Positions 25,981 to 60,700 of a stretch of 64,000 bases of DNA are shown in pieces (the stretch's first letter is position 1; each line of letters starts with the position of its first letter). The stretch is from Trogon surrucura. Its lineage: Eukaryota; Chordata; Aves; Trogoniformes; Trogonidae. The translations under genes and the position numbers were made by a program. The notes under the pieces were generated by a model. That model was not told where the DNA came from. It did not search any database and saw only the letters and a list, made by a program, of their open reading frames with translations. The stretch covers positions 1,452,582 to 1,516,581 of the forward strand of contig CM036634.1 in NCBI GenBank assembly GCA_020746105.1, given 5' to 3'.

Positions 25981-26070
25981 AATCATAGAACCACAGAATG
26001 TCAGGGGTTGGAAGGGACCTCAAAAGATCATCTAGTCCAACCCCCCTGCCAGAGCAGGAGAATATCTCCA
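25981..26070 (-). mobile_element. CR1 LINE 3' end fragment
   Basis: AATCATAGAACCACAGAATG is the octamer-repeat tail of CR1 read on the opposite strand. It is followed by GGTTGGAAGGGACCTC and ATCATCTAGTCCAACCCCCC, the standard CR1 3' untranslated region. The copy is heavily 5'-truncated, as most CR1 copies are. It is a different subfamily from the copies at 31352 and 44192 (GTCAGGGGTTGG instead of GGCCGAGGTGGG). Confidence 0.88.
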
Positions 26071-31351: not shown

Positions 31352-31904
31352 TCATAGAATCCTAGAATGGCCGAGGTGGGAAGGGACCTCAGAGATCATC
31401 CAACCCAACCCCTGCCATGGGCAGGGACGCCCTTAACCAGCCCAGGTTGCTCAAGGCTCATCCAACCTGGCCTTGAACATCTCCAGGGAGGGGGCAGCCA
31501 CAGCCTCTCTGGGCAATCTGCTCCACAGTCTGGCCACCCTTGCGCTGAAGGATTTCTTCCTAAAATCCAATCTAAACCCCTTCTCCTTCAATTTAAACCC
31601 ATTTCCCCTTGTCCTGTCGCTGGACACTCCTGTCCAAAGTCCCTCCCCACCTCCCTGTAGGTCCCTTCAGGCACTGCAGGCAGGGATAAGGTCCCCCCGG
31701 AGTCTTCTCTTCTCCAGCTGCACAACCCCAGCTCCCTCAGCCTGTCCTCGCAGCAGAGCTGCTCCAGCCCCTGGGTCATCGTTGTGGCCTCCTCTGAACA
31801 GATCCACGTCCCTCTTACAGTGGGGACACCAGAACTGGACGCAGTATTTGAGGTGGGGTCTCACCAGAGCAGAGTAAAGGGGAAGAATCCCCTCTCTTAC
31901 CCTG
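31352..31904 (-). mobile_element. CR1 LINE, 5'-truncated copy (about 550 bp)
   Basis: Starts on this strand with the 3' octamer tail ATCATAGAATCCTAGAATGG, then GGAAGGGACCTCAGAGATCATCC, the CR1 3' UTR. It continues into the C-terminal part of the ORF2 reverse transcriptase protein on the minus strand ([21 protein letters not shown] and [13 protein letters not shown] motifs). Homology ends near CTCTCTTACCCTG, about 31904. Side by side with 31352-31600, the copy at 44192 differs at only about 20 of 260 positions. It is not autonomous. Confidence 0.95.
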
Positions 31905-42700: not shown

Positions 42701-45700
42701 AGATGCATCTTGTCTGACTGTGGATGTTTAATAGAGAATTACCTGGTCTGAGCTAGTAGTCTCGGCTTGCTTTATAGCCGGCGATGGGAAATAAATGCCT
42801 TCAGGCTGCAGCTCCTCGCAGCTATTCAGACTTTTCAGGAGGTGGGCACGTCTTTTTCCTTCCACTCACTGCCTTCCAGAGATTTGCAGGTAGAGCTAAT
42901 AAATCCTGCCCGTAGAGAATACAGATGCTCTCATTAAGCACAACTGCAGTAGAACCAAGTGCAAACACGCGGTGAATATTTCATCACTGTACAGTCTTGA
43001 AGGAATCTGTCGGAGCAAAATAAATCGCTGATCGTCCTTCCACCCTTGTGTTCTAAAAGGGTTCAGGAATCCCCTTTGAAAAGACAAGGTAGTGGAATTT
43101 CAATTCACTGCTTTGAAGATTAGTTTCTCCTGTGCAGGGGATGTTCTCGCTGGTTGTTGTTAATCTGTAACATGAGGCAAAGCTGGGTTTCAAAAACATT
43201 TCTTGTGCTTCTCACTGAGGCCAGAAAGAGAATCTGAGCGTATGAGATAGAGGAATAATATAAGATTTTTGGATACTGGGGTTTGTCCTCATTGTTCTCA
43301 AATCAAGTACATGGATCAAGTGGCTGTTTCTCCTCCGTCTGTTGCAAAACGCGGGAGTGTGGTGTGTAAATCACGGTCTGTGTGATGGCTTTGTGAGTTC
43401 CCATGTGAGACCACCAGTCACAAGTCCCTGTAACACGTTCCGCTCTTCGGCTGTGGGGAAGTCGCAGCCTGGAATTGGTAACGCTGCCCTTGGTTTTAGA
43501 GCAAATACCTGCATAAACATTCCCTCCTCCTTGGCCCGTGGGGCATGCTGCTGGTTTATTCACAGTCACAGAACATTGCTTTCCCGCTCGCAGTTTATTT
43601 TGGCTTCCCAAGTGTGTATTTCTTTACTGATGTCCAAAGGCTTCATTTTTTACTATCTGTTAGTTCTGCTTCTATGTACATTCTAAGTTATCAATATGAT
43701 GTTTGTTCTCGCTTTTTGCTTTCAGCGATGTTTTCCCAGTCAGCCTGTCAGAGCTCAGCCTGGCATCTTCTACTGCAAATTAACAGCCAACTGTTTGTTT
43801 CTGGGACAGGTGTCAGTTTTCTACTTTTGAGCAGTGTCAGGACTGGCTGAAGCGACTGAACAATGCCATCCGCCCTCCTGCGAAGATCGAAGACCTCTTC
43901 TCGTTTGCCTATCACGCCTGGTGCATGGAGGTGTACGCTAGTGAAAAGGAGCAGCACGGGGATTTGTGTCGGCCAGGTACGTCGCAGCACTTTGGGGATC
44001 GTCACAGATGTGTTCGCTGGCAACTGCCCGTTTGCTCAAATCCAGAACTTTGAAGAAAAAGTTCTGAACAAATTCAGTGGGTGCTGTTGCAGACTGAACC
44101 TGGAAAATTCCACTATGGATTTTTTTTATTTAGTAAGTCCTTACACATCCTACAGGCTGGTGAATATCCTGTGTGTGGTAATTATATAGAGATATAGAAT
44201 CCTAGAATGGCTTAGGTTGAAAGGGACCTCAGAGATCATCCAACCCAATCCCCGCCATGGGCAGGGACGCCCTTCACCAGCCCAGGTTGCTCAAGGCTCA
44301 TCCAACCTGGCCTTGAACATCTCCAGGGAGGGGGCAGCCACAGCTTCTCTGGGCAATCTGCTCCACAGTCTGGCCACCCTCAGGCTGAAGGATTTCTTCC
44401 CAAGATCCAACCTAAATCTGTTTTCCTTCAATTTAAATCCATTTCCCCTTGTCCTGTCCCTGGACACTCCTGTACCAAGTCCCTCCCCAGCTCCCTGTAG
44501 GTCCCTTCAGGCACTGCAGGCAGGGATAAGGTCCCCCCGGAGTCTTCTCTTCTCCAGCTGCACAACCCCAGCTCCCTCAGCCTGTCCTCGCAGCAGAGCT
44601 GCTCCAGCCCCTGGATCAGCTTTGTGGCCTCCTCTGAACGGATCCATGTCCCTCTTACAGTGGGGACACCAGAACTGGGCACAGTATTCAAGGTGGGGTC
44701 TCACAAGAGCAAAATAAAGGGGGAGAATCCCCTCTCCTGCCCTGCTGGCCACACTGCTCTGGCTGCAGCCCAGCACAGGGTTGGCCTCTGGGCTGCAGGA
44801 GTGCCCTGGTGGCTCATGTTGAGCTTCTTGTCTTTCAACACCCCCAAATCCTTCTCTCCAGGGCTGCTCTCACCCCACTCTGTGCCCAGTTTGTATTTGT
44901 GCCTGGGATTGGCCCGACCCAGGTGAAGGACCTTGCACTGTGACTTGTTGAAGCTCCTGCAGTTTGCACTGGCCCATTTCTCCAGCCTGTCCAGGTCCCT
45001 CGGGATGGCATCTCTGCCCTCAAGTGGGTCCACCGCCCCACACAGCTCGGTGTCATCGGCAAACCTGCTGAGGGTGCCCTCGATGCCGTTGTTCGTGTCG
45101 CTGTCAAAGACGTTGAACAGCGCTGGACCCAGAGCAGAGCCCTGAGGAGCCCCACTTGGCTCTGGTCTCCACGTGGACCTGGAGCCCTTGACCACAGCTC
45201 TTTGAGGGCGACCTTCCGGCCAGTCCCTTATCCACAGGGTGCTCCATCCCTCAAGTCCGTGTCTCTCCATTGTAGGGATAAGGATGTCGTGTGGGACAGT
45301 GTCAGGTGCCTTGCACAGGTCCAGGCAGATGACGTGAGTTGCTCAAAGGTACAGTTCACCTTCACTTAGGGTGAAGTGGCCTTTGATTTAGAGGGTTGTG
45401 CGTGAGACTAATAACGCCCTGTTCACCGTGGCAGCGATGTTCGATCTGAAACGTTTGGTGTTGGTTGTGGTCTCCAGCGTGGAAGTTGAGGAGCAGGAGG
45501 TGAAGGAGAAGGAGGTCGCTGGGCTGCTCCTGAGGGTCATTTGCAGCTGCAAGACAGCGACCTGCTGTAGTGAAATAACATCCGTGCCGGCGAGTTTTAG
45601 CAACCTGCGAGTAAATCAGAGCTAAAATGTGGGATGCTGGTGGTTATACCTCCTGTTTGAATATAAGGAAACCTGCGTTCCGGGCCCTCTTTGCTCGCAG

Positions 45701-54700: not shown

Positions 54701-57700
54701 TGTTCAGTAAATGCTGAACTGTGTGGAATATGCTGATTAGCTTTCCCCTGCTCAGTCAAACACGTAAACCAGAGCGAGACAGAGGTGTCCAGTGTGCTAA
54801 CCCCTGCAAAACCCCAACTGAACCAACTTGTGGAAGTCCACTAATTGTAGAGGACAGCAATATTTGAGGACGGTTGTGCAGAATACAGCTTGTCAGCAGT
54901 TTTTCTAGAGCTGAAACATTTTTCAGCGTTTTTATCAGAACCCAAAGCACCTGAAATCCTCATTCAGCTGGTGTTTGTAATTAGCACTTGCTGTGTTCTT
55001 CCCTATCACTTGTTGGTATTACGGACAAGATACTGATTTCTGATTGGATATGAATGCAACAGCCTGTTAAAATTCTGCGTGTGGAGAGTCTCAAAAAAAG
55101 ATACCAGACGCAAAAGCTACGGAAAACAAAAGTTATTTTGGACGTACATTCGTGCTTTGCTCTTTGCTGCAATAACTGCACTTCGATACGTAGCAAGAAG
55201 AGATGAATTTTTCATTTAACACCTCAAACCGACTAAATAGCTCCTCGTTGGAGAGTCACATTTCAAACGGAAAAGCAAAGCGCACAAGAAGTTTAATTTT
55301 CTTCCCACGTATTGGTTCTTGAATTCTCTGTAGAAAATTTCCAAACAACTTGTCACCTTCTGTAAATTTGACCTGCACTCAGCGCTGCTTTTTTGCTAAG
55401 TTTGTGGCGTTTTTCCAGCTATTGTCAAGGTTACTTCATTCTCTCTGTAAAAAAAACAAAACTCTTGTTTATGCTGTGCGTTGTTTTACATAGAATTCAG
55501 TAAAAAGACAAAAAGATGTTTAAATTGTCTGATACTGTCAAGCTGTTTCTCACTGGAGTTCCCCGGTCCGTTACTAAGAGGATGTTCTGGCTTGGGCCAG
55601 AATTTGTTGGGCTGGTGACGAGTTCAGAAATCGAGTTATACAAAACACACTCTTCTAAGTGACTGTTGCATTTTCTTCCCCAAACACTCCATATCCCGTA
55701 TTCTGAGTCCTCATTAATTTTGAAGTGGTGAACGAAGTAACTCGGCCTTTAGGAGTGGTCAGGGCAAGGGATGTGTAACATACAAAGATCAATTTACCAG
55801 ATTTCAGAGCGTCCATCAATTACCAGTTCAGTATTCGTTCTGTCCCGCAGTCTCTCAGGATGTTTCTCTCTCTTTTTCTAAACCATTCTGTAACGCCGAG
55901 CTCGCTGTTCCCGCAGGTTTGTACTCTGCTCTAGAGAACATGAGGTGAAACGTTGAAAATAAATACGCACACACTTTGCTACCTCCTTCCTGTTTTGGTG
56001 TGTTGTAACGTCTGGAATGTACCTCGCAAGCCCCGAGTGCTACCTTCTCCTCACACAACATTTGTGAGCGGGTTATTTCATGTCTCCGCAGCGACGCTGG
56101 CTTGGTGTTACCAAAAAGCTTCTTTTGGAAATGGAGCTTAGGGCAGTTTTTACTTTCTTCCCTCTTGATATTCCCCTACAGAATATTACCCAAACTGTGA
56201 AGTGGTGTTCATGGGGATGGCAAACATTCACTCCATCCGCAAGAGCTTTCAGTCGCTGCGTTTGCTCTGCACCCAAATGCCAGATCCAGGAAAGTAAGTG
56301 GATGTTTGGGGGGGTTTTACACACTTCTGCAGCTGCTTTCTTTTACACAAATCCTCAGTCGGTGGGTTTTCCCTTATACCTCAGCTGTATTTTTTTACCA
56401 CTTCCACAGAATTTGAGCTAAAGGAAGCCATTAGTTTATTACAGTCGAAGTAAACCTAGAAAATGAAATCTGAGGTGCAGCCTTGAGTATTGGTACTAGA
56501 ACATTCCTACTCCGAGGTGGGCTTCTGAGTGCTGGCACTTACGTTTCCCTGCTGTTCCTGATTCTTTAGTCTTTACAGCTTGGCTCTCCTGGAGATTCTA
56601 GTGGTGCTCCCTGTGCTTCTCACATTTACAGTGTTTTTGTAGGCCTGCAGTGCTGTGGGATGACTGATCTCTGACGGCCCCTCATCTCCGGAGCTTTTGA
56701 GGTTGGCCCCTCCCTGTAGTTGCACCGAGTCTGTTTCTCCTTCCCCTGGTTTGAATTTGCTGCTGTGAGTCTTACAGAACGGGATACGTAGGACTTCGTG
56801 GGGTAGAGATTCTTAAAATACCAGCAGCGTGCCTTGTAAAGCCTGGGAATAGTTGGGATTTCAAAGGTGCCTCTGGTCCAACCCTCTCACTGAAGCTGGG
56901 ACTCATCAGGGCCAGGCACCAGCGAGGCTGGGGACGCCGTGTCACCCACGTCTGCGGCTCAGGGGAAGGCAGAGAGCAGAGGCTGCAGAAAGTGGTGATG
57001 CCCCAGTAGCGCGTACATTGTCCGTCACTGGGAAAGTGTCGTGCTCTTGCCTGGGAAAGTGTTATTTAAGCTTCTTGCAAGTCTGACCCAGCAAACCACG
57101 TTCCAGGGGCTGCCTGTTCCGCAGCTGGGCTGCCCGGCTTTGTTTCTTACGGGTCTGGGAAAGCGTTGACGAGACATAAATGAAATCTGGTCAAGAATGA
57201 CATGCCCAGCTTACCAAAATAGGAGCTTCGACTTGATAAATTCTAAGCTCCAAACCAGAAAGCATCCTAAAAGAGCAAAAACTGTCTTCCGTTGTTTTCC
57301 TCTAGTTGGTTATCGGCTCTGGAAAGCACCAAATGGCTGCAGCACTTGTCCGTGCTTCTGAAATCCGCGCTGCTCGTAGTTCACGCCGTGGACCGAGACC
57401 AGCGACCAGTCTTGGTGCACTGCTCCGACGGCTGGGACCGAACGCCCCAGATAGTGGCACTGGCCAAGCTGCTGCTCGATCCCTATTACAGGACCACGGA
57501 GGTTTGTAGACCCTCTGCTGGGGCGGGAGGCGCTGACCGCGTTCGGGTCCTTGCCCGGGAAGCTCCGGCTGTGGCTGATTGCAGGTTTTTCCCCTGGGAA
57601 AGGCGCTGGGGCTGGCAGGAGTTTGCCAGCAGCAGTCCGCAGATACGGTTACACAGAGGTGTAAATGTAGTCTGTAATTCAACAGCAGATTATTTTTGCC

Positions 57701-60700
57701 CCTTTTACTGTCACGCACAGTCACGGTCTGTGTTTCCCTGGGTTTTGGGAGCTCAAAGCGCTGCGTAGCGTGGTTTGCGTTACACCACCGCGGTTTCCCG
57801 GCCAGCCATTGATGCAGGGCCTTTCTCTTTTCTGAATTTCCCAACTGCATGCTTTTCAAGTTTCACATTTTCCTTGTCTTCTGTCACTTGTGTTCCTCTT
57901 GGTTTTTCAGCCCCATTTCCTCCCCCTCCGTGACTTTTCAGCGTTGTGTGGTAACGTCGTGGCTGGATTTCACCAGCCGGCCCCCACACAAGATGCCCTT
58001 GTCTAGAACAGAAGCACGTGTCTGAACACTTCGCTGCTTAAAGCCTCGGACACACGAGGACCAGGAGTTTAAACCGTAGCAAATGCCTTTTGGATGAAAT
58101 CGTGGAAACTTCTCGGATCCTTTTCCGTGTGGCTCCTAGAAGTCGGCATTCATCAGGGCGAAACCGCTCTGTCCTTGGCACAGAACCTCCTCCTGGTCCT
58201 CCTGTTCAAAGTGCAGGGTCCTGCACGACGCCCTTTGCCCACTGCCTTGTCGCCGCCGCGTCAGGGGAAGCCTCAAGCTGTAGCTGCCTGCACAGACATC
58301 AGAAACCTTCAGGAAAATGAGTCTGCAGCAGTGTCACGTGTCAGGCTTTTCAGCTGTCACCTGTTATTTTTGCTTTAATTGCAACCACTGACTTAATAAG
58401 CACTTTCTACTATTTTTCTTTCCCCAAGAGTCAAACCCTTCCTAACCTGTGATGGCTTTTAGGTCCTGTAAGATGAGGCGTCGCGTTCAGGGGCTCAGCT
58501 CAGCGCTGGTTTGAAATGTCCTTTGCTTTTCTCCTTTGGAATCGCGCACGAGTCAACCTTTAACCAGCCTTGTGACCGTGCCGGCAGGTGCTCACTCTGA
58601 GCGTGGTTTTCTTTTACGACAGACAGGTCCACCCATCATTTCTAAGGGAGAGCTTTAAAATTTCCTCTCCTGGCCAGGCGTCGGTGGCCTCGATCCGGAT
58701 GGTTTTATCGAGATGAAGCTCCCCCTCACCCTTGCATAGCTGTGATAGGTCTCATCTCAGGATCTGCCCTGCTGGTCACTGAGGACTCAACCTGCCTTAT
58801 TCCCTTGCCTGTTCACGTAGGTTTGGGAATTCTTATCTGTCCTAATTTTGTCGTGCGGCGTTTTGGAATGCAGAGGCATTAGGTCAAGCAATAAAGATAA
58901 ATAATGAGGCCAGGGCTGAAGGGAAATCGGAGTGAGGACACAGCGACGAGGTGATTCCCATGAGTCAGTCTTAGAGAATTGAACCAAAGAAAAAAAAAAA
59001 TAAATAAAACAGGATCTTTTCACCTTTATTTTTACTTCTGCAGGGTTTCCAGGTGCTAGTGGAGATGGAGTGGCTGGATTTTGGCCACAAGTTTGCAGAT
59101 CGCTGTGGCCATGGTGAGAATTCGGATGACCTAAATGAGCGCTGCCCAGTGTTTTTACAGTGGCTGGACTGCGTCCATCAGCTCCAGAGGCAGTTCCCTT
59201 GCTCTTTCGAGTTTAACGAAGCATTCCTTGTGAGTTGTGGCTTGAGAGATTGCTGTTTTATAGACTGCTGCTAAACCAGTACCCGGTAGTGACGTGCTGT
59301 AGAGCCCCTGAGGGGTTTCTGATTTTTCCCACCTCTCTGTGATAACGCTGCAGCCCGGGAAATGTAACGCAGGAGACAAAAGTACTTGTGCGCTTCAGGA
59401 GGCCTCTTCACGCTTCGAACAGAAGCAGGACCCTTAAGGGCTTCTCCTAAAGAAAGAAATAAACAATATAAATTCAATAGTGTCACGTAAGGGGGGCTCA
59501 GTTAACTCTGATATAATGCACCCACACTGCGCCAACAAGAATCTGGCAATATAAGCTGCCCCCTACTTTGATCTGTTTTGATTTGAAAACTCCTCTGCAA
59601 ACAGCTCTGCCCCATACCCTTCCATGCATTTTATTTTTCTGTTTCGTTGCTGAAAATACGTAGGATATACGAGCTGTGTTGATTTCCTTTGGAAGCGGAC
59701 AGCTCTCCTCGGAGGTGTTTGCCCGGGGCGGTTAAAATCGGAGAAGCGGGTGTCCGGGCGAGTGGCGGTGACTGACCGCGGGCCCGGTGACGTGATGAAT
59801 AAATGTTTTTATGAAGTGTCTGATCCGCTGAGAGTTGTAAAGCGCATTCTTGTGATTGTGGCTGACTTGGGTTACCACTCGCCAGCTCAGCTGTGTAATA
59901 ACCGAGCTCCTGGCTTAGCTCTGTTGTGAAATGAGATACGTGAGGTTGCAACCGGCTGCAAAGCCGGTTGCAACCTCACGTATCTCATTTCACAACTGCT
60001 GCTGGTCTGCAGGAGCCGCCTGTGATCATACCCTCAGCCTTCTGGCCCTTTCAGAGGGAAATCCCTTCATTTATTAGTACTTGTCTTCATTGAAACATCT
60101 GAATAATCCCACGGAAGTCATTTATATGCTCCAAGTGAAGGTCGTATTAAGCTGTTCTGTTAGACTGCGAGCACAGCGTGGAGCGAATGGCGATGAGAAC
60201 CTCTGCGCTGCGTTAATGTTTCGTAACGGAGGCATCGTGATTCTCCCCTTTGCCTGTTCTGCAAGCTTGAGTCAGCGAGACTTTTATGCCCTGATACAAA
60301 CAAATATTTTGTCTTGGTATTTGGGTGGGATTTCCTGCATTATTTTTTTTTTTTGGTGACAATTCTAAGATTCCGCTGTGCTCGGATTCTTTTGCGCTTA
60401 GTTTACGAGGAGGTATGCCAGAAACGCTCGGTGTATTCGCGCATCGGTCTCCAGGAAAGGCGGGGTTTGTTGCTTCTGAAGCCTTTGAGTGCTGATTCTC
60501 TCAAGTTAAGCTGATCTCTTCTGCCATGTGATGCTGTTTGTGTTGGTCCACACAGGTGAAATTGGTGCAGCACACCTACTCTTGCCTCTTTGGTACATTC
60601 CTGTGCAACAACGCGAAAGAGAGAGGAGAAAAACACACTCAGGAACGGACCTGCTCCGTCTGGTCTTTGCTGCGGGCAGCAAACAAAGCCTTCAAAAACC

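Follow-up and report, generated by a model that had tools for sequence, protein, structure and literature searches.

A perfect 35-bp hairpin in an intron of a myotubularin-related gene of Trogon surrucura, probably formed by a recent short-range template switch

Inspection of a 64,000-nucleotide stretch of the Trogon surrucura genome (the window; free of N) revealed a perfect inverted repeat that, in our view, probably stems from one recent event, either a short-range template switch or foldback-primed copying, a reading to which we assign a probability of roughly 0.68. The left arm (59923..59957, + strand) and the right arm (59962..59996, + strand) are 35 nt each and complementary at 35 of 35 positions, the right arm being the exact reverse complement of the left, and they enclose the 4-nt loop GCAA (59958..59961; TTGC when read on the - strand), which we take to be a GNRA-type tetraloop on the + strand. 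The hairpin is thus real in the assembly, just as the preliminary description had reported it. The copying event itself, its seed and its youth are what we infer from this arrangement.

A scan that allowed loops of 0-60 nt found four inverted repeats in the whole window whose perfect arms reach 10 bp or more; in the other three the arms are only 11, 10 and 10 bp. From base composition, perfect arms of 35 bp are expected about 3e-15 times per window (loops 0-60), and the longest arms in 10 windows simulated with an order-1 Markov model (loops 0-20) were 9-12 bp, so that the arms show, beyond chance, the exact reverse complementarity looked for in a template-switch product. Folded as DNA, the 74 nt of the hairpin give -45.3 (z -17.2). 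Where perfect inverted repeats were surveyed with spacers of up to 8 nt, the longest human arm was 140 bp, so that the 35-bp arm, though long, sets no record; eukaryotic perfect inverted repeats are described there as mostly lacking a spacer, a 4-nt spacer being commonest in bacteria (PMC13155455).

The hairpin lies within an intron of 1,326 bp (59230..60555, + strand), 693 nt from the donor GTGAGT, which starts at 59230, and 559 nt from the acceptor CCACACAG, which ends at 60555. Coding frames lie on either side: the upstream exon, whose last base is 59229, reaches 110 bits against the Pfam Myotub-related profile, and the exon starting at 60556 matches the final positions of the same profile with 25.5 bits, at a cut-off of 25. 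Upstream, a frame at 57418 with the catalytic motif HCSDGWDRT also matches Myotub-related, and its closest PDB structures are those of MTMR2, 8, 6 and 1. These splice sites and flanking frames bear out the intronic position proposed earlier, and the host is a myotubularin-related gene on the + strand. It is putatively MTMR3, as assumed in the preliminary description, and not a paralogue: the frame at 63.5-64.0 kb, which has no Pfam match, would agree with the human protein.

A foldback artefact of sequencing, library preparation or assembly, with a second arm synthesised in vitro and then carried into the consensus, would give the same appearance as a template switch. Long reads are known to contain foldback artefacts (PMC12870357), and inverted-repeat chimeras have been described from ligation libraries (PMC13141652). 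Against this origin, the sequence on either side of the hairpin belongs to a single intron whose splice sites and coding frames are coherent, and the scan with loops of 0-60 showed no further perfect arm above 11 bp anywhere in the 64 kb. Moreover, foldback artefacts are usually single-read events that are outvoted by the consensus, and we regard an artefact as unlikely.

If the hairpin arose by template switching, a nascent 3' end would, during replication or repair, have paired back on its own strand or switched to the opposite one, using a short GC-rich inverted repeat such as GGCT-GCAA-AGCC that spans the present loop. Reverse copying of the remaining ~30 nt of the arm would have followed before synthesis returned to the proper template, leaving one arm ancestral and the other as its copied reverse complement. 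A candidate seed is seen at the hairpin tip (59944..59973, + strand), which consists of ~2.7 imperfect 12-nt tandem units with a TRF score of 37, below the default cut-off of 50 and recovered with the minimum score lowered to 30. By eye the units read GGTTGCAACC / GGCTGCAAAGCC / GGTTGCAA.., each of them itself near-palindromic, and these self-complementary units could have served as a foldback seed. The perfect arms, the 4-nt loop and the lack of a second copy in the window together argue for copying rather than convergence, and among the origins offered earlier the template switch is the best fit.

Published events point in the same direction. In great apes, template switches often leave perfect inverted repeats, 65.0% of 1503 gold-standard events lengthen the sequence, and the copied length among these 1503 events has a median of 12 and a maximum of 128 nt (PMC7954356). 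The copied length of at most 35 nt here is within this published range, in its upper part given that median and maximum; that it exceeds most of these events (PMC7954356) has to be counted against a template switch. In a second study, mutation patterns at the birth of microRNA stems are consistent with template switching, hairpin-loop priming on the nascent strand is proposed, and exceptionally stable loop motifs are enriched in rRNA hairpins (PMC8794818). Two further points weigh against a template switch: the largest template-switch-like rRNA pattern of that study, reaching 59 bp, did not pass its quality control (PMC8794818), and the return junction of the presumed switch in the trogon intron carries no recognisable signature.

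The preliminary description had reasoned that perfect arms mean a structure that is young, maintained or artificial, and this reasoning is sound. Either the hairpin is of recent origin or its stem has undergone repair in the meantime. From the 70 unchanged arm sites, and on the assumption of unrepaired arms and neutral rates of 1.5e-9 to 3e-9 per site per year, we obtain a rough median age of ~1.6-6.6 million years, depending on the assumed CpG rate, with a rough 95% upper bound of ~7-29 million years. A later template switch could reset this estimate. CpG is only mildly depleted in 59401-60500 (51 observed versus ~62 expected), so that CpG decay in the arms is perhaps slower than assumed and the hairpin may be somewhat older than the CpG-adjusted estimate.

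Greater age is also what would follow if the arms were part of an older quasi-palindromic stem of more than 35 bp that included outer segments and was perfected by template-switch correction. The outer match noted earlier between GCTCCTG (59906..59912, + strand) and CAGGAGC (60010..60016, + strand) is indeed present, and the two segments can pair in the predicted RNA fold as a possible lower stem. In that fold, predicted for the + strand only, the 25-nt flanks add -20.6 kcal/mol to the core. Flank pairs drawn at random from the window gained -10.2 kcal/mol on average, and 25 of 1000 were as good as the real flanks; among local flank pairs, of which 106 of 1000 draws were dropped for lying within 200 nt of the hairpin, 37 of 894 were as good; shuffled flanks gained a mean of -14.1 kcal/mol, with 33 of 1000 as good. 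The predicted outer pairing is hence mildly unusual and weakly significant. With this weak significance, and with internal loops interrupting the lower stem, we judge an older stem to be improbable.

Copying at a single locus would leave one hairpin, whereas a foldback or MITE-like transposon, as suggested by the hairpin shape, should be accompanied by further copies and by a target-site duplication. A 16-nt inner arm piece, searched with up to 3 mismatches, matched only the two arms in the 64-kb window. Comparison of 59232-60552 with the window by blastn gave five matches. Two are self-matches, one of the stretch with itself and one of the hairpin with its own opposite strand; the other three are weak and do not involve the hairpin, one being 31 nt long at 81% (E 0.07) and two being exact 14-mers (E 0.86). 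A second copy is thus lacking within the 64 kb, and near the hairpin ends no flanking direct repeat is longer than 3 nt. The multi-copy foldback transposon considered in the preliminary description is therefore disfavoured by what the 64-kb window shows, and we rate a transposon copy of either type as very improbable.

Repeats also occur elsewhere in the window. Over 551 bp, the stretches 44194-44744 and 31354-31904 are 93.1% identical, and a shorter one, 25985-26058, matches over 75 bp at 76%. A reverse-transcriptase fragment on the - strand (44704-45342; Pfam RVT_1, 49.8 bits) adjoins the 44194-44744 stretch. We presume this to be a CR1 LINE, and the fragment is compatible with a bird as host.

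Prokaryotic, phage and vector origins of the hairpin were considered and rejected. The segment 59900-60020 has no match in phage, plasmid or E. coli sequence (word-11 blastn, E up to 1); one 19-nt arm piece has no exact match in viral contigs, and one 21-nt arm piece has none in prokaryote contigs. Literature searches found no paper on the hairpin site, and MTMR3 is absent from the main text of a zebra finch microRNA paper (PMC3585881).

A stem produced by template switching might act as a functional hairpin RNA, as the precursor of a new microRNA or endo-siRNA transcribed with its host gene, and several properties of the trogon hairpin fit such a role. It lies within the intron of a protein-coding gene, and its predicted fold is very stable on both strands: RNA from 59890-60030 folds with -89.9 kcal/mol (z -12.4) on the + strand and -84.0 kcal/mol (z -13.0) on the opposite strand. 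New microRNA stems are moreover reported to arise by template switching (PMC8794818). Many microRNA models align to the hairpin at relaxed thresholds, the lowest E value being 1.5e-8.

These alignments do not amount to a known RNA family. Rfam at gathering scores matches nothing in the whole window, a result that a new family would share, and the 55 matches of the relaxed search (E up to 10), the best at E 1.5e-8, all fall short of the cut-offs of their families, which include plant, animal, viral and bacterial ones alike; in our reading they reflect the shape of the hairpin, not kinship. The loop of 4 nt also speaks against a functional hairpin RNA. Drosha substrates carry a basal UG and a CNNC motif at 16-18 nt, although many true microRNAs lack some of these motifs. 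In the trogon hairpin CNNC is absent at 16-18 nt from four assumed cut sites on either strand, and the basal UG fits one of the four assumed cuts on the + strand and none of the four on the - strand, so the expected motif spacing is not seen. Six arm pieces of 17 nt are absent from the main texts of the papers searched. As a canonical microRNA, the hairpin RNA raised in the preliminary description thus finds weak support at best, with no Rfam gathering match, a 4-nt loop and misplaced CNNC, and a functional hairpin RNA strikes us as highly doubtful.

Double-stranded RNA could nevertheless be formed at the site. A transcript of the intron would, judged by its sequence, hold a 35-bp duplex, and the A bases of the arms (18 of 70 on either strand) are possible ADAR sites. 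The boldest proposal is a long shot: a template switch seeded by the 12-nt tip units would have produced, in one step, a perfect stem in a transcribed intron, and this newborn and not yet decayed hairpin would already undergo processing or editing as double-stranded RNA, making it a nascent microRNA or endo-siRNA gene of a bird. Our default is a neutral intronic mutation.

The hairpin, read as the product of template switching, is probably young and the result of an ordinary kind of event, belonging to a mutation class that is documented in two studies (PMC7954356, PMC8794818). The hairpin alone leaves existing knowledge unchanged. Should it prove genuine, it would provide a clean, probably recent case in which one mutation, of a documented type, produced a perfect stem of considerable length. 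Such a case could help to date these events in birds and to find out whether newly formed intronic hairpins enter small-RNA or editing pathways.

Its closest likeness is to the short-range template switches of the four-point model, with which it shares a perfect inverted repeat, a tiny spacer, a single locus and a length within the published range (PMC7954356, PMC8794818); it differs from them in a copied length above the typical one and in being known from the present-day sequence alone. Template-switch-born microRNA stems such as MIR633 offer a second likeness, in a perfect stem that a single event at one locus could produce (PMC8794818), whereas the trogon hairpin has a loop of 4 nt and is known as DNA sequence. 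Finally, foldback-primed inverted duplications also arise at double-strand breaks: there a strand folds back at inverted repeats and so becomes the primer for fill-in synthesis along itself. Those events end in hairpin-capped and then dicentric chromosomes (PMC10622511), in contrast to the 74-bp local hairpin in the trogon intron.
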